53,749 nucleotides of DNA. It comes from a virus. The notes beneath the pieces are model-generated. The model had not been told where the DNA came from. It ran no database searches and saw nothing but the letters and a program-made list of their open reading frames with translations. Below are positions 3,628 through 48,859 of this stretch, piece by piece; the first letter of the stretch is position 1, and the number at the start of each line of letters is the position of its first letter. The position numbers and the translations under genes were made by a program. The stretch is from IMG/VR virus record IMGVR_UViG_3300032086_001878, positions 1 to 53,749 of that record; one strand, written 5' to 3'.

Positions 3628-5397
3628 ATGATAAAAAATGAATACGGGCCGACACTACCAATCTCTGAAGGAATACACGCCACTAAATACCGAAGTGAAG
3701 GTGAAACATTCTACGAGGCTATGACCAGAGTAGCAGACGCATTAAAAGACGATACTGTTCACTTCGAACAGTTTAGAACAATCCTTTATAACCAACGGTT
3801 CCTACCTGCAGGTAGAGTGCAATCAGCTATGGGTGCGCCCCGTACTGTAACGCCCTACAATTGCTTTGTTTCCTCTACGATTGAGGACAGTATGGATGGC
3901 ATCACCAGAGCCGTTGCAAGGGCCGCTAAGACCATGCAATTAGGTGGCGGTATCGGGTACGACTTCAGTACGTTACGGCCTCATGGGGCGCTTATAAAGA
4001 GCCTAGACAGCAAGTCTAGCGGCCCCCTAAGTTTCATGGGAATTTTTGATGCAACTTGCAAGACAATTAGCTCCGCAGGGCATCGAAGAGGCGCTCAAAT
4101 GGCAGTGATGCGAGTGGATCATCCTGACATCGAAAAGTTCATTCGGGCAAAGAACAATAGCACTGACCTAACCCAGTTTAACATGAGTGTTGCGGTCACC
4201 GATAAGTTCATGGAAGCGGTAAAAACAGACAGCGACTTTGACTTAGTTTTTGAGGGAACAGCTTACAAGACCGTCAAAGCAAAAGCTCTGTGGGATGATA
4301 TTCTCAGAAGTACATGGGATTGGGCTGAACCTGGAATCCTATTCATCGATAGAATTAATCAGAAGAATAATCTACACTATTGTGAAACGATTGCGGCTAC
4401 AAACCCTTGTGGTGAGCAACCATTGCCACCCAACGGTGCATGTTTACTAGGTTCATTTAATTTAACTAAGTACGTTGTGATGCATGATGCGGTAGGCAAA
4501 TGGGGCTTAAAGGATAAGTACGTCTTCAATATGAACATGCTCAAGAATGATATTCCTTGGGTAGTTCGGGCAATGGATAACGTAGTCGATAGAGCAACCT
4601 ACCCTCTTCCTGAACAAGAAGAAGAAGCCAAAAACAAAAGGCGCATGGGCTTGGGTGTTACTGGTGTTGCAAACGCTATCGAAGCTCTTGGCTTTGAGTA
4701 TGGCTCAGATGATTTCATCAGGATCTTCGAGGACATCATGGCTACCATCCGTGATGAAGCTTACAAAGCTTCCATAGAACTTGCTAAAGAAAAAGGTAAG
4801 TTTCCGCTATTTAAAAAGGATTACCTTACTAGCGGCTTTGCTATGACCTTACCAACTGAAATCAGGACTGAGATTGCAAAGCATGGCATCCGTAACAGCC
4901 ACCTTTTGTCTATAGCCCCAACGGGAACTATTTCTTTGACTGCAGATAATGTATCATCTGGCATAGAGCCTGTGTTTAATCATGGCTATGACCGCACGAT
5001 ACAAACCTACGATGGGCCTATCGTCGAGCGAGTAGATGATTATGGCTACCGTGAGTTTGGTGTAAAAGGAAAGACCGCTAACGAACTCTCAGTCTTCGAT
5101 CATGTGCGAGTTTTAAATATAGCAAGTAGATATGTTGATTCCGCTTGCTCGAAGACGTGCAATGTTGGTGACCATGTAAAATTTGATGAATTTAAAAAGG
5201 TATACATGGATGCATATGAGGGCGGTAGTAGCGGTTGCACAACTTTTCGTAGAAAAGGGAAGAGAAACGGCATTCTCAATGCTTCGGCATCTGAGGACGT
5301 TGTAGAAGAGCCTCAGAAAGAGGCCAACGCAGACTTCGTAGACGAAGGTGGGGCTTGTTACTTTGACCCATCAACAGGACTGCGAAAATGCGAGTAA
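3628..5397 (+). CDS. nrdJ: Class II (adenosylcobalamin-dependent) ribonucleoside reductase
   Basis: 589 aa from the ATG at 3628; a GGGAG Shine-Dalgarno at 3615-3619 decides this start over an upstream in-frame TTG. It makes deoxyribonucleotides for phage DNA synthesis. Signatures: PYNCFVSS (substrate-site Cys79), AKTMQLGGGIGYDFS, NPCGEQPLPPNGACLLGSFNL (thiyl Cys261 with Glu263) and APTGTISL. The NPCGEQ loop and single-gene organisation are typical of the B12 class. The C-terminus carries two further cysteines (GACYFDPSTGLRKCE) that could serve as the redox relay. Activity would depend on host cobalamin and thioredoxin. Confidence 0.93.
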   Translation: MIKNEYGPTLPISEGIHATKYRSEGETFYEAMTRVADALKDDTVHFEQFRTILYNQRFLPAGRVQSAMGAPRTVTPYNCFVSSTIEDSMDGITRAVARAAKTMQLGGGIGYDFSTLRPHGALIKSLDSKSSGPLSFMGIFDATCKTISSAGHRRGAQMAVMRVDHPDIEKFIRAKNNSTDLTQFNMSVAVTDKFMEAVKTDSDFDLVFEGTAYKTVKAKALWDDILRSTWDWAEPGILFIDRINQKNNLHYCETIAATNPCGEQPLPPNGACLLGSFNLTKYVVMHDAVGKWGLKDKYVFNMNMLKNDIPWVVRAMDNVVDRATYPLPEQEEEAKNKRRMGLGVTGVANAIEALGFEYGSDDFIRIFEDIMATIRDEAYKASIELAKEKGKFPLFKKDYLTSGFAMTLPTEIRTEIAKHGIRNSHLLSIAPTGTISLTADNVSSGIEPVFNHGYDRTIQTYDGPIVERVDDYGYREFGVKGKTANELSVFDHVRVLNIASRYVDSACSKTCNVGDHVKFDEFKKVYMDAYEGGSSGCTTFRRKGKRNGILNASASEDVVEEPQKEANADFVDEGGACYFDPSTGLRKCE

Positions 5398-6012: not shown

Positions 6013-6041
6013 TTGACTAAGTGGCGTTTTGATTCTACTAT
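6013..6041 (+). promoter_or_regulatory. Sigma70-type promoter P1 with shared GTGGCG element
   Basis: TTGACT (6013-6018), 17-bp spacer, TACTAT (6036-6041). AAGTGGCG follows the -35 box directly, as in the capsid promoter on the other strand. Transcription would run into a strong terminator about 95 nt downstream without crossing a convincing gene. Confidence 0.7.
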
Positions 6042-6047
6042 TAGAGT

Positions 6048-6178
6048 TATCAAAGGAATGTTTCTTTCTTTCTGTCCTTTGTGTTTCTGTTTTGGGAAGT
6101 TACGGTGATTGGTCGCACTGGCTTCGTTGGATATGGGTAAACCCTCGTAGGCACTTAAACTTACGGGGGTTTATTTTT
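6048..6178 (+). ncRNA. Candidate small RNA 1 (P1 to terminator)
   Basis: About 130 nt lie between promoter P1 and the hairpin at 6138-6173. The 5' half is pyrimidine-rich, with TCCTTTG stretches able to pair with Shine-Dalgarno sequences, and it also contains ATTGGTC followed by CACTGG, similar to the antisense core of RNA 2. The only start codon (6058) lies too close to AAAGGA and gives 16 codons, so a protein is unlikely. Confidence 0.45.
6138..6178 (+). terminator. Rho-independent terminator
   Basis: A 14-bp stem (6138-6151 with 6160-6173, two G-T pairs) with loop CACTTAAA is followed by TTTTT. It ends RNA 1 and any read-through from the replication operon. Confidence 0.85.
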
Positions 6179-6189
6179 AGAGATAAAAA

Positions 6190-6264: not shown

Positions 6265-6282
6265 CAAAAAGCCCCGTAGCTA

Positions 6283-6312
6283 TTGACCACAGGGCTTTAG
6301 ATCGTATATAAT
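6283..6312 (+). promoter_or_regulatory. Strong sigma70-type promoter P2
   Basis: TTGACC (6283-6288), 18-bp spacer, perfect TATAAT (6307-6312). The -35 box lies in the loop of an AAAGCCC/GGGCTTT hairpin. Nothing but RNA 2 lies between it and the next terminator. Confidence 0.75.
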
Positions 6313-6317
6313 ATACT

Positions 6318-6385
6318 TGAAGTTGGCGGTTTGGTCACTGCCTTTTTCAGTTTAGTAACCCTAGGCTTAATCGCCTAGGGTTTTT
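6318..6385 (+). ncRNA. Candidate antisense small RNA 2, complementary to the accessory-gene ribosome-binding leader
   Basis: A transcript from P2 would be about 68 nt and end at the hairpin 6357-6382. Its single-stranded part, 6330-6355, nearly matches the antisense of the leader shared by accessory genes: 16 of 17 bases equal 41396-41412, and the CAGTTTAG that follows matches the other leaders. Pairing would mask AAGGA and the bases just before the start codon. On the opposite strand the same bases look like a hairpin plus leader whose ATG has become ACC, so a decayed intercistronic element is the alternative. Confidence 0.5.
6357..6385 (+). terminator. Rho-independent terminator of RNA 2
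   Basis: A perfect 10-bp stem AACCCTAGGC/GCCTAGGGTT with loop TTAATC, followed by TTT. It also lies just after the stop of the convergent 58-aa gene. Confidence 0.85.
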
Positions 6386-41087: not shown

Positions 41088-41110
41088 TTGGTCATTCCTT
41101 CTTTCAGTTT
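41085..41110 (-). promoter_or_regulatory. Shared ribosome-binding leader, copy A
   Basis: On the minus strand AACTGAAAG, AAGGA, ATGACCAA, then the start ATG. One of at least seven leaders with this layout; Shine-Dalgarno to start spacing is eight bases. Confidence 0.8.
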
Positions 41111-41112
41111 AA

Positions 41113-41132
41113 AAGGGGCAAGCTTTAACTTA
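41113..41132 (-). terminator. Intercistronic hairpin
   Basis: GGGG/CCCC-based hairpin followed by TTTT on the minus strand, between the stop of the 83-aa gene and leader A. Weak terminator or processing site. Confidence 0.4.
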
Positions 41133-41144
41133 CCCCTGCTTTAA

Positions 41145-41396
41145 TTATTGCGGTGTATCGATTGCGCTTATCGATTGAGACTCGAAGTTACCATTAGCTT
41201 TGTAAATGGTGGCTAAAACCTGTTTAGCTGTTTTGAATTTGAAGATTAAATTAGTTTGTTTTTCTAATTCTTTCAGGGCTTCAGTCTTTGTTTTATGCTT
41301 CGTGTAGAATGCCATTTGATTCCACAATGGTGGCACGGAATAACAAAGCCATGAGCTTTTACGTTTAAAGATTTTAAATTGTTCCTGTTCTTTCAT
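41145..41396 (-). CDS. Hypothetical basic protein, 83 aa
   Basis: MKEQEQFKIFKRKSSWLCYS, then AFYTKHKTKTEALKELEKQT. The TKTEALKEL phrase after a short beta part resembles the pattern in the 67- and 109-aa proteins at 42.5-43.1 kb (ETKEEAESVI, DTKDEALSLI). Behind leader B. Function unknown. Confidence 0.7.
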   Translation of the reverse strand: MKEQEQFKIFKRKSSWLCYSVPPLWNQMAFYTKHKTKTEALKELEKQTNLIFKFKTAKQVLATIYKANGNFESQSISAIDTPQ

Positions 41397-41426
41397 TTGG
41401 TCACTTCCTTTTAACAGTTTCAGTTT
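41394..41426 (-). promoter_or_regulatory. Shared ribosome-binding leader, copy B
   Basis: Minus strand AAAAGGAAGTGACCAAATG. Its complement matches the candidate antisense RNA at 6330-6346 in 16 of 17 bases, the best match of all copies. Confidence 0.8.
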
Positions 41427-42284: not shown

Positions 42285-42308
42285 TTGGTCATTCCTTTTT
42301 TCAGTTTC
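42282..42308 (-). promoter_or_regulatory. Shared ribosome-binding leader, copy C
   Basis: Minus strand AACTGAAAAAAGGAATGACC then AAATG. Shares AACTGAAAAA with the antisense counterpart at 6.34 kb. Confidence 0.8.
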
Positions 42309-43506: not shown

Positions 43507-43838
43507 TTGGTCATTCCTTCTTTTTCAAGTTTAGTTTGATTTTGTGCAGCGTCTTCAAGTCGGTTCATTAGAACCGCCAAAGCGTAACCCATATCGGAAA
43601 AGCTCGCCTGTTCAGCGCATTGCCGCACGTTTTCCCAAGTATGCATTTTGTACACGGGTTGCCTTGTTTGTGGGGCTTGCGGTTCTATCGTTGTCGAAGA
43701 TCCACAAACTTTATTTTCGTTTAAGAAGTTTAAAAGGTTAGGTTTATCAGTCGGAACGTTAACCGCTGAAGCTTTTATTTTCTTTGCCGCAGCTTGTGTT
43801 CCAACCCATTGCCCCGAATTATTTACATAAAGTTTCAT
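43503..43838 (-). CDS. Hypothetical protein, 111 aa
   Basis: Starts MKLYVNNSGQWVGTQAAAKK, followed by VPTDKPNLLNFLN, a phrase I have seen in proteins of Roseobacter phages, and a Gln/Ala-rich helical end. Behind leader E. No function assigned. Confidence 0.7.
   Translation of the reverse strand: MKLYVNNSGQWVGTQAAAKKIKASAVNVPTDKPNLLNFLNENKVCGSSTTIEPQAPQTRQPVYKMHTWENVRQCAEQASFSDMGYALAVLMNRLEDAAQNQTKLEKEGMTK
43504..43534 (-). promoter_or_regulatory. Shared ribosome-binding leader, copy D
   Basis: Minus strand AAGAAGGAATGACCAAATG. It lies inside the end of the upstream gene, showing that the leader is conserved even where it must also encode protein. Confidence 0.75.
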
Positions 43839-43860
43839 TTGGTCACTTTCTTTTAGTTTA
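43836..43860 (-). promoter_or_regulatory. Shared ribosome-binding leader, copy E
   Basis: Minus strand AACTAAAAGAAAGTGACCAA then ATG; a weaker Shine-Dalgarno (AGAAAG) but the GTGACCAA spacer is kept. Confidence 0.7.
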
Positions 43861-43879
43861 GGTTAAAATCGATAAAGCG

Positions 43880-44812: not shown

Positions 44813-44835
44813 TGGTCATTTTCCTTTTCTGTTTA
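44810..44835 (-). promoter_or_regulatory. Shared ribosome-binding leader, copy F
   Basis: Minus strand AACAGAAAAGGAAAATGACC, then AATG. The gap to the hairpin at 44848 is only 12 bases, so no promoter fits between them. Confidence 0.7.
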
Positions 44836-44839
44836 GCCA

Positions 44840-45214: not shown

Positions 45215-45981
45215 TATGCCGCCACCCTATCGAATACAAAGCTTTTACCTGAATCCATTAAATCAAACGGGCGGCATTCTGAAACTTGGCAGGGTTCAAC
45301 AATAAACAAGCCTTTTTGCTTTTTGTTTTTATTTCCCTTTAATTTTAAACCGCAAATTTTATTAAATGAATTAGCGTTTATTAAGTCGCTCTTATCCCCG
45401 TCTATAATTTCACGGCCTAGGAAATACTTTCCAACTGGTACTGAACCCCGAAATACTACAGCAATCGGAAAGCCTGTTTTCAGTGCTTCCTTAACTTGAT
45501 TCTGATATTGTGGAGTCCCTGAGTAGCTAAAAACTTTTTTATAATTCTTTAAGCCAGTGTTCAGGGTTTTTACTAGTTTTGTATAATCGTAAAAATAAGC
45601 TTGTGGAAATTGTTGCGGTATTCCTTCTTTAACCCAATTAATATCACTAATCGTATTTAATCGGAATGCAGCCTTGAAACCCTGCTTTTCAGTTTTTCTA
45701 ATAAAGGCTTCTATTTCTTTTCTAAGCTTTTCGAGAAACTTTTCACGCTCTTTTAAATACATTTCCGTTTTAAATTTACGGGCTAAATTCACAGACTCGA
45801 ACATTTCCGAAAATCCCGAATCCTTTAAGCATAACCGCATGCAATCGGCAGCTTTAGCCCCTGCACAAATGACGTTGTTAGGATATAGACTCAAGCTTGC
45901 AATCTTAAATTCTGTTCCGTTTTGGCTTTTGGCAATTTTTGAATTTGTGCCGCCAGTGTTCAATAGTTTAATATTCTTCAT
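45214..45981 (-). CDS. GP88 family protein
   Basis: 255 aa with the pattern of phage gene product 88: NVICAGAKAADCMRLCLKDSG (three spaced Cys), ESVNLARKFKTEMYLKERE, GFKAAFRLNTISDINW, QAYFYDYTKLVKTLN, YKKVFSYSG and a C-terminal CQVSEC. Known from actinobacteriophages and many others; activity unknown, the Cys suggest metal or Fe-S binding. First gene of the accessory island. Confidence 0.8.
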   Translation of the reverse strand: MKNIKLLNTGGTNSKIAKSQNGTEFKIASLSLYPNNVICAGAKAADCMRLCLKDSGFSEMFESVNLARKFKTEMYLKEREKFLEKLRKEIEAFIRKTEKQGFKAAFRLNTISDINWVKEGIPQQFPQAYFYDYTKLVKTLNTGLKNYKKVFSYSGTPQYQNQVKEALKTGFPIAVVFRGSVPVGKYFLGREIIDGDKSDLINANSFNKICGLKLKGNKNKKQKGLFIVEPCQVSECRPFDLMDSGKSFVFDRVAA

Positions 45982-46010
45982 TTCGAAGTTTCCTTTTCAG
46001 TTTAGTTTTT
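45979..46010 (-). promoter_or_regulatory. Shared leader, diverged copy G
   Basis: Minus strand AACTGAAAAGGAAACTTCGA then AATG. The AACTGAAAAGGA part is kept but the GACCAA spacer is replaced. Confidence 0.6.
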
Positions 46011-46711: not shown

Positions 46712-47791
46712 ATGACGAATAGAGTTAAGTACTTCAGAGAAATAGTTTTAAGCACGGGGGAACGAAAATACTGTTTTGAACCCCCAAAGTATGTGCAGGA
46801 TGCTCTTGGATGCAGAAGGGAACCCTATGACAGTAAGCTCTTGGCTATACAAAGATGTCAGGAGATCGATGATGCTTACAGGCAGTTCAAACGAGGTGAT
46901 ATAGCTGTTCAAAGAGTAAACTCTGCCACTGTATTGGGTATAATTAACTACTATAAGAGTACCCACGAATATGTTAAACTAGCAGACAATAGTAAAAAGA
47001 CCTATGAACAGTTACTTTCAGGTCTGATTAACATCCAATTACGATCTAAAAGTGGCCCGTTTGTAGAAATGTTGGCTGCAAACGTGACTGAGGATCATGC
47101 AGATAAGCTACATGCATTCCTTCGAGACAACATTTCAGACCACAGGGCGAGACACACGGTTAAGTTCCTGAAGCGTGTCTGGAATGTCTGTGAAATGAAG
47201 AAAAAGATTAGAGGTAATCCTTGGAGACATCTGGAACTGGAGTCAGATCCTGTAAGTGATGTCGTATGGAAGGAAAGCCAAGTCGATAGGTTCATCAATA
47301 CCGCAGATGATATGGGGTATCCTTCGATGGGAACACTGGCAATGCTTTGCTACGACCTATGCCAACGACCTGGAGATATGCGGCAACTTACATGGGAACA
47401 GTTTGATGGAGAGAGCTTCGATTTCTATCAGGAAAAGACAGGGGTGAAGATTGAGATCGATGCAAGCCCCCGTTTAGTTAAGCGACTAGTACCGCTGCAC
47501 AATAGATACGGACAAGATGAAACCATTGTTCAATATGAGAAAACGAACAAGGGCTACGACAATCGAAAGTATAACGAGATCGCTGCTAAAATACGGAAGC
47601 AGTGTATGCTCCCTGATAAACTTAAAATGAAATTTTTACGTCACTCAGGGGCTACCGTTCTTGGCGAAAACGGGGCTACGGAAGATCAGATCTCCGCAGT
47701 TACAGGCCACAAATCCAGACAGATGCTCAACATCTACGTCAAAAAGACCAAGCGTTTGGCATCTTCTGCACAACAACTGAGGTTCAAATGA
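46712..47791 (+). CDS. int: Tyrosine site-specific integrase
   Basis: 359 aa. Catalytic domain residues: Arg219 in LCQRPGDMRQL, Lys242 in EKTG, Arg310 in KFLRHSG, His333 in TGHKS and nucleophile Tyr342 in NIYVKK. The His of the usual HxLR box is Lys307 here, a substitution seen in some members. The N-terminal 170 residues give the arm- and core-binding domains. It should recombine phage and host att sites; a tRNA-like attP candidate lies 1 kb downstream. GAAG lies upstream of the ATG. Confidence 0.92.
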   Translation: MTNRVKYFREIVLSTGERKYCFEPPKYVQDALGCRREPYDSKLLAIQRCQEIDDAYRQFKRGDIAVQRVNSATVLGIINYYKSTHEYVKLADNSKKTYEQLLSGLINIQLRSKSGPFVEMLAANVTEDHADKLHAFLRDNISDHRARHTVKFLKRVWNVCEMKKKIRGNPWRHLELESDPVSDVVWKESQVDRFINTADDMGYPSMGTLAMLCYDLCQRPGDMRQLTWEQFDGESFDFYQEKTGVKIEIDASPRLVKRLVPLHNRYGQDETIVQYEKTNKGYDNRKYNEIAAKIRKQCMLPDKLKMKFLRHSGATVLGENGATEDQISAVTGHKSRQMLNIYVKKTKRLASSAQQLRFK

Positions 47792-47922
47792 AGGACATCA
47801 CAGAGGCACGAAGGGCGTTTGAAGAAGAATTAAAACGGCTAATTAAAAAGCCACCAAGCGTCCTGACTGAACGTCTTATAGACTTAATACAGGCAATACA
47901 AACTGAACTTAAAAAGGAATGA
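47788..47922 (+). CDS. Hypothetical helical protein, 44 aa
   Basis: MKDITEARRAFEEELKRLIK and ERLIDLIQAIQTELKKE: two charged helices. The ATG overlaps the integrase stop (ATGA), so the two are coupled; an excisionase or integrase-partner role is possible but unproven. Confidence 0.6.
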   Translation: MKDITEARRAFEEELKRLIKKPPSVLTERLIDLIQAIQTELKKE

Positions 47923-47925
47923 CCA

Positions 47926-48093
47926 ATGGATATAGCCCAGTTACCTATCAAGCTGTTAGCACATTTAGAATTTATCGGGGTGTTACCTCGCAGTGTGGAT
48001 GAAGATGGCGTTGATAATATCGAAACCCCTGAGATCGGTAAGAGCTTCTTTAGAAAGCCTGACTTCGATGCTCAAGGCGAACCAGAGTTCTAG
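47926..48093 (+). CDS. Hypothetical protein, 55 aa
   Basis: MDIAQLPIKLLAHLEFIGVL then acidic residues and IGKSFFRKPDFDAQGEPEF. It is preceded by AAGGAATGACCA and ATG, a plus-strand occurrence of the shared leader (47914-47928). Function unknown. Confidence 0.65.
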   Translation: MDIAQLPIKLLAHLEFIGVLPRSVDEDGVDNIETPEIGKSFFRKPDFDAQGEPEF

Positions 48094-48776: not shown

Positions 48777-48859
48777 CATTGATTTTAAAGGATTGGTTGC
48801 GGGGAGAGGATTTGAACCTCTGACCTTCAGGTTATAGCCAGAAACCAATAAAATCAATG
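48777..48859. other. Candidate attP: tRNA 3'-half between inverted repeat arms
   Basis: On the minus strand 48835-48794 is the 3' half of a tRNA: anticodon loop ATAA, stem CCTGA, variable AGGTC, T-arm AGAGG-TTCAAAT-CCTCT, acceptor CCCCGCA, discriminator and CCA. It resembles tRNA-fMet (CAT) of alphaproteobacteria. The 5' half is missing, so it is not a tRNA gene. It is flanked by inverted arms CATTGATTTTA...TTGGTT (48777-48798) and AACCAATAAAATCAATG (48843-48859). Confidence 0.7.

Follow-up and report, generated by a model that had tools for sequence, protein, structure and literature searches.

The stretch of DNA analysed here in full (the window) is a 53.7-kb virus record, whose helicase and 5519-5998 gene have as their best named relatives the HMO-2011-type podoviruses of marine Roseobacter, with helicase identities of 67% (CRP-235), 56% (CRP-212) and 50% (CRP-3). 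This group comprises at least 10 subgroups, and integration has been shown for CRP-3 (PMC9038755). As the same study counts four isolates on two Roseobacter strains, naming CRP-3, we take CRP-3, CRP-212, CRP-235 and CRP-738 to be the four cultured members of subgroup III.

At the junction of the rightward early operon with the leftward late operon, positions 6283-6385 constitute a plus-strand sRNA gene (Table 1), an assignment made from sequence, with transcription inferred. A sequence-only reading had pointed to a textbook promoter and a 10-bp hairpin terminator framing about 68 nt without a gene, and each of these elements is indeed present. The -35 box TTGACC (6283-6288) and the -10 box TATAAT (6307-6312), separated by an 18-nt spacer, form the top promoter-like site of the region, the terminator stem (6357-6382) leads into a run of T's when read in the plus direction, and neither strand of 6313-6385 holds an ORF of 50 aa or more. 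The locus thus has the features of an sRNA gene, namely its own promoter, an intrinsic terminator and no protein coding, and the predicted fold of the inferred transcript amounts to -30.3 kcal/mol.

The minus-strand hairpin that overlaps the promoter is, judging by its sequence, likely to be the terminator of the converging late operon, and the -35 box of the sRNA promoter sits in its loop in the window and relatives alike. Late read-through would therefore be antisense to the whole sRNA and oppose it, an arrangement consistent with, although no proof of, stage control.

Table 1. Features of the sRNA gene and of its predicted target leaders in the window.
Feature	Position	Strand	Remarks
Hairpin AAAGCCC...GGGCTTT + T-run	6268-6298	-	From sequence; GCCCC..TTGACC..GGGGC arrangement in relatives
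Sigma70-type promoter, TTGACC-N18-TATAAT	6283-6312	+	11/12 matches; both boxes kept in relatives
sRNA (putative transcript), ~68 nt	6318-6385	+	Start inferred 6 nt past -10 box, end at T-run
5' hairpin, GGCGGU-UUGGUC-ACUGCC	6325-6342	+	Covariation; loop 6331-6336 invariant
U-rich linker, UUUUUCAGUUUAGU	6343-6356	+	Pairs with leader at and upstream of Shine-Dalgarno
Intrinsic terminator, 10-bp stem + T-run	6357-6385	+	Present in all listed relatives
Leader TTTAAACTGAAAGAAGGAATGACCAA, gene start 41087 (55 aa)	41088-41113	-	Duplex -27.4 kcal/mol
Leader, gene start 41396 (83 aa)	41397-41425	-	Duplex -33.0 kcal/mol
Leader, gene start 42284 (136 aa)	42285-42308	-	Duplex -27.1 kcal/mol
Leader, gene start 43506 (146 aa)	43507-43536	-	Duplex -30.1 kcal/mol
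Leader, gene start 43838 (111 aa)	43839-43862	-	Duplex -32.1 kcal/mol
Leader, DUF932 gene start 44812 (297 aa)	44813-44838	-	Duplex -30.3 kcal/mol; PF06067 3e-27
Leader CTAAACTGAAAAGG, GP88-like gene start 45981 (255 aa)	45982-46007	-	Duplex -21.4 kcal/mol; PF17338
Leader, small gene start 47926 (55 aa)	47901-47925	+	Duplex -27.1 kcal/mol

Conservation of the locus and its hairpin

The promoter and its conservation are established by comparison with relatives. Of 36 related viral contigs, 35 have TTGACC, a TATAAT-like box, a TTGGTC-loop hairpin and a terminator after their homologue of the 5519 gene, the last (L007) stopping before the sRNA site and so being uninformative. The isolates CRP-3, CRP-212, CRP-235 and CRP-738 carry the element at the same junction, CRP-738 with a larger loop that has UUGGUC inside. 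RNR occurs in two unlike types and was therefore not kept as a probe. No prophage relative was found in the genome contigs searched, the single match being 19 residues in an unrelated MAG, and 18-nt hairpin matches in the isolate-derived L085 and L086 were taken as chance, being without promoter-terminator context.

It had been supposed that 6330-6355 is unpaired, which proved wrong: 6325-6342 folds as a conserved hairpin, leaving 6343-6356 as a linker, so that the idea of an antisense RNA gains a structured seed. Stems differ between relatives (GGCGGU/ACUGCC, GGAAGU/GCUUCC, GAACC/GGUUC, ACGGGG/CCCCGU, AAAAGU/ACUUUU and AAUGGU/ACCAUU). Across 19 sequences both sides change in all six base pairs of the stem, and the loop UUGGUC is invariant. 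The covariation score is 0.951; shuffled controls give 0.313, with none of 500 reaching the observed score, and sliding the stem gives no more than 0.364. Pairs were counted in fixed windows around the loop because MAFFT misaligned the sRNAs of type G and CRP-3. Read on the other strand, the G-U and U-G pairs of the stem would turn into C-A mismatches, and the hairpin therefore makes sense on the plus strand alone. In 10 of the 11 sRNA-bearing genomes it is the sole TTGGTC hairpin whose loop is closed directly by five or more pairs, a strict rule under which CRP-738 has none. An invariant UUGGUC in a covarying stem satisfies the requirement of a conserved, accessible seed. When the window sRNA is folded alone, the first linker bases pair with its 5' end.

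Other features were observed close by. Just upstream of the sRNA, 6013-6180 (+) is a possible second RNA gene of ~140 nt, with a TTGACT-N17-TACTAT promoter and a strong terminator (CCCTCGTAGGC...ACGGGGGTTTATTTTT), also seen in L006-L009, for which Rfam gave sub-threshold matches only (His leader, Spot 42; E ~0.08). GTGGCG lies between the -35 and -10 boxes of promoter-like sites at 6020 (+), 40304 (-) and 30187 (-) (TTGACTAAGTGGCG..., TTTACTAAGTGGCGCAGTTGTGCTATAAT), and is possibly an operator for a phage regulator. Some close relatives (L006 at 4170-5200, and also L007 and L008) have an inserted gene, beginning MNTEFKKCEHKNCS..., that separates the homologue of the 5519 gene from that of the sRNA.

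Complementary leaders and their co-diversification with the sRNA

The proposed identity of 6330-6346 (TTTGGTCACTGCCTTTT) with 41396-41412 at 16 of 17 bases was confirmed by reading both sequences, and the minus strand of the sRNA fits the leader consensus, for which shuffles give 0.00 expected matches. The loop UUGGUC is exactly complementary to GACCAA, a motif located between the Shine-Dalgarno and AUG of seven window genes (47926 on the plus strand, 44812, 43838, 43506, 42284, 41396 and 41087), and the linker pairs upstream of it, over the Shine-Dalgarno. The leader had been said to be common to several genes plus the plus-strand gene at 47926 (which lies just past the integrase gene); it is full in these seven and partial at 45981, where pairing involves the linker and the sRNA 5' end rather than the loop. 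The predicted duplexes (-21 to -33 kcal/mol) begin near -30, reach the start codon and take in the Shine-Dalgarno, as had been expected. Most targets in the window come after an intercistronic hairpin, and so the first gene of each segment is hit. With its targets at 41-46 and 47.9 kb, the sRNA is encoded apart from them and pairs imperfectly with several ribosome-binding sites, as a trans-encoded RNA would. The integrase gene itself (46712-47791) is followed ~1 kb downstream by a sequence resembling a tRNA gene 3' end (TTGCGGGGAGAGGATTTGAACCTCTGACCTTCAGG, 48797-48845), likely the attachment site.

The leader precedes the DUF932 protein or its positional counterpart (276-328 aa) in all nine sRNA types, with a DUF932 Pfam match in the window, CRP-235, CRP-3 and CRP-212 and one below threshold in CRP-738; on the best reading this gene is the foremost target. 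Further marked genes encode GP88-like (window) and DUF2786/DUF7168 (CRP-738) proteins and small orphans, and in type G the helicase start is marked as well. Helicase leaders matching the own sRNA were seen in G005 (6089), G004 (23094), G006 (4369), CRP-3 (4724) and CRP-212 (4353); the window helicase, unlike that of several types, has no matching leader, so the rightward members of the regulon vary. The marked genes are non-structural and presumably early.

Comparison of related phages for compensatory change, which had been proposed as a check, found that sRNA and leaders changed together in nine types. Linker and leader sequences were taken from 13 genomes or large contigs: the window (CAGUUUAG with leader CTAAACTG), CRP-235 (AAGUUUAG with CTAAACTT), CRP-3 (CAAGUUAGAU with ATCTAACTTG), CRP-212 (CUAGUUAGAA with TTCTAACTGG, including one G-U, and TCTAACTAGAA), CRP-738 (CGUUGGUUGA with TTAACCAACG), G002/G003 (UUCGUUUUAGAUU with AATCTAAAACGAA; UUGGUCGGUUCC with GGAACCGACCAA), G004-G006 (GUUUAGCUAGU with ACTAGCTAAAC), L104 (UUUCGGUUUUAA with TTAAAACCGAAA) and L109 (CUUCGGUUUUAAUUG with CAATTGAAACCGAA). 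In a swap test, targets were picked solely by a Shine-Dalgarno and GACCA near ATG, which fit every sRNA loop equally, and against circularity only the linker was scored, with the leader upstream of GACCA. For seven types, 28 of 41 leaders were fitted best by their own linker (mean -12.8 versus -8.1 kcal/mol; Wilcoxon p = 3e-7), and for nine types 30 of 43 were, the true assignment being the lowest of 362,880. Types H and I (L104 and L109), on contigs fetched after the model was framed, fit it. The nine types share ancestry, H and I being near neighbours, so these numbers do not represent independent events. Leaders of type F fit the linker moderately and pair chiefly with the loop and 3' stem arm. 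Exact 9-mer matching gave only a noisy diagonal, and linker-only swap tests were used instead.

Complementarity to the own sRNA lies at gene starts in all examined genomes but G006 (a fragment, helicase leader only). GACCAA leaders number 33 across the 11 sRNA-bearing genomes and none in the first 50 kb each of HMO-2011, HTVC033P, CRP-1 and CRP-207, all without the sRNA hairpin; the reverse-complement control gave 2 and 1, respectively. No GACCAA leader was found in the 27-kb fragment G006 and only one in the 45-kb fragment G001. A first count, which had confined the motif to the window, was rejected as too narrow (partial genomes, fixed spacing), duplex scans having recovered leaders of the other types. 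A crude genome-wide test on duplex energy alone sets the targets apart from shuffled sRNAs in five genomes out of six (z between -2.7 and -4.1) but not in CRP-235 (z -0.6), where taking ORFs from their longest start only can miss targets. Complementarity and co-diversification may nevertheless be regarded as established.

A model for early-gene repression and its alternatives

We consider the sRNA to act in trans as a translational repressor with many targets, the leftward early genes of the phage itself, and to have co-diversified with them, and put the probability of this at about 0.86. The earlier suggestion that a phage antisense RNA has multiple targets through a repeated leader to which it is matched finds support in the co-diversification and in the conserved promoter, hairpin and terminator. 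The loop UUGGUC would nucleate on GACCAA just upstream of target start codons, and pairing would then zip along the 3' stem arm and the linker until it takes in the Shine-Dalgarno and the sequence before it, blocking ribosome loading and preventing translation initiation. One sRNA could in this way lower translation of a set of early genes, leftward in the right arm (DUF932, GP88-like and others) with a few rightward. Repression itself is inferred, as is its timing: early genes might be shut off as the sRNA accumulates with genome copies, or the silencing might take place in lysogens or be directed at superinfecting relatives. More tentatively, and with odds that fall well short of even, the sRNA may provide RNA-based immunity and a developmental switch, silencing the early regulon of self and of superinfecting phages of the same type.

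The locus could instead be a leader repeat that is dead or inverted and serves no function itself, the likeness of sRNA and leaders coming from homogenisation of repeats by recombination. A hairpin, CTAAACTGAAAAAGG and GTGACCAAA do follow one another along the minus strand much as in the intercistronic modules, with ACC in place of ATG just as the sequence-only reading had described, and an inverted leader module is a plausible, if inferred, evolutionary origin of the sRNA. Yet a dead copy would hardly keep a plus-strand promoter and terminator at one site in 35 contigs, nor a covarying hairpin with plus-strand G-U pairs whose 5' arm has no counterpart in the leaders. The leader matches, moreover, are discontinuous pairings with bulges and a G-U (CRP-212) rather than copies, and the relatives seen have no start codon or minus-strand gene there and retain the promoter, the reverse of what would have refuted an antisense RNA. 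We give this explanation almost no credence. A real RNA whose loop, like the leaders, is recognised by some further factor, be it an RNA-binding protein or a feature of the ribosome, with complementarity as a by-product, would account for a loop that stays invariant amid changing surroundings, as a protein site might. A common protein site would, however, give alike and not complementary sequences, and the changing linker tracks the changing leaders in Watson-Crick manner through nine types, which makes such a factor highly improbable as the cause.

Roles might also be reversed, with target mRNAs or antisense late transcripts titrating the sRNA and host mRNAs as its main targets. The overlap of the late terminator with the sRNA promoter, and late-operon read-through antisense to the whole sRNA, would suit titration; the co-diversification and the exact placement at ribosome-binding sites indicate instead, on evidence from phage sequences alone, that phage leaders are the selected partners, and we regard this arrangement as very unlikely.

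Relation to known phage RNAs

L001, L014, L024, L025 and L035 gave no match in Rfam 15 at the gathering threshold, and a permissive search over the sRNA gave at best Hrs12 (20.7 bits, threshold 70) and VrrA (16.5 bits, threshold 50). No description of this sRNA was found in the open-access literature, subscription papers not being covered. The sRNA fits the trans-encoded base-pairing class on all testable features, its expression and effect on targets being inferred and Hfq or ProQ binding being a further mark of the class.

In phages P1 and P7, the antisense RNA c4 and its target come from one transcript, out of which c4 is processed. Co-transcription with, and processing upstream of, a single target do not apply to the sRNA described here, which has an independent promoter and eight distant leaders; a loop complementary to the ribosome-binding site, UUGGUC to GACCAA, is held in common. 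In c4, too, complementary stretches, likely in loops, pair around the ribosome-binding site and block translation, and c4 is tied to heteroimmunity between two related phages, although its one described target is the ant mRNA (PMC12197685), compared with at least eight window leaders and nine co-diversified types here. If the immunity switch were true, co-diversified sRNA-leader pairs would define heteroimmune groups, as a multi-target counterpart of P1/P7 c4.

The sar and sas RNAs of P22 and OOP of lambda are likewise short phage RNAs that base-pair with phage mRNA, but are antisense to single genes (PMC12197685), whereas the window sRNA is trans-encoded and matches a leader of many genes. 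VpdS of VP882 and PreS of lambda are also short base-pairing RNAs encoded away from their targets, several in the case of VpdS, but they work through Hfq on mRNAs of the host or of both phage and host (PMC12197685), unlike the window sRNA, whose targets are its own early genes marked by a shared leader. Phage sRNAs in the same 2025 review mostly concern one phage gene or host RNAs (PMC12197685). What we describe looks like a genome-wide post-transcriptional regulon of a phage, made of one 68-nt RNA and a leader common to early genes, the two kept matched as both changed across a widespread marine phage group and in cultured phage-host pairs.

The leaders themselves recall the Start-Associated Sequences (SAS) of cluster K mycobacteriophages, a repeat that many non-structural genes have at their ribosome-binding site, in some cases together with an inverted repeat. 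Whether an RNA or a protein binds it, and whether from host or phage, had not been settled in 2011 (PMC3203893). The sequences are unrelated, and the SAS core fits 16S rRNA with no matching sRNA known (PMC3203893). Repeated start leaders elsewhere, the mycobacteriophage SAS among them, now become open to a test for an RNA partner.
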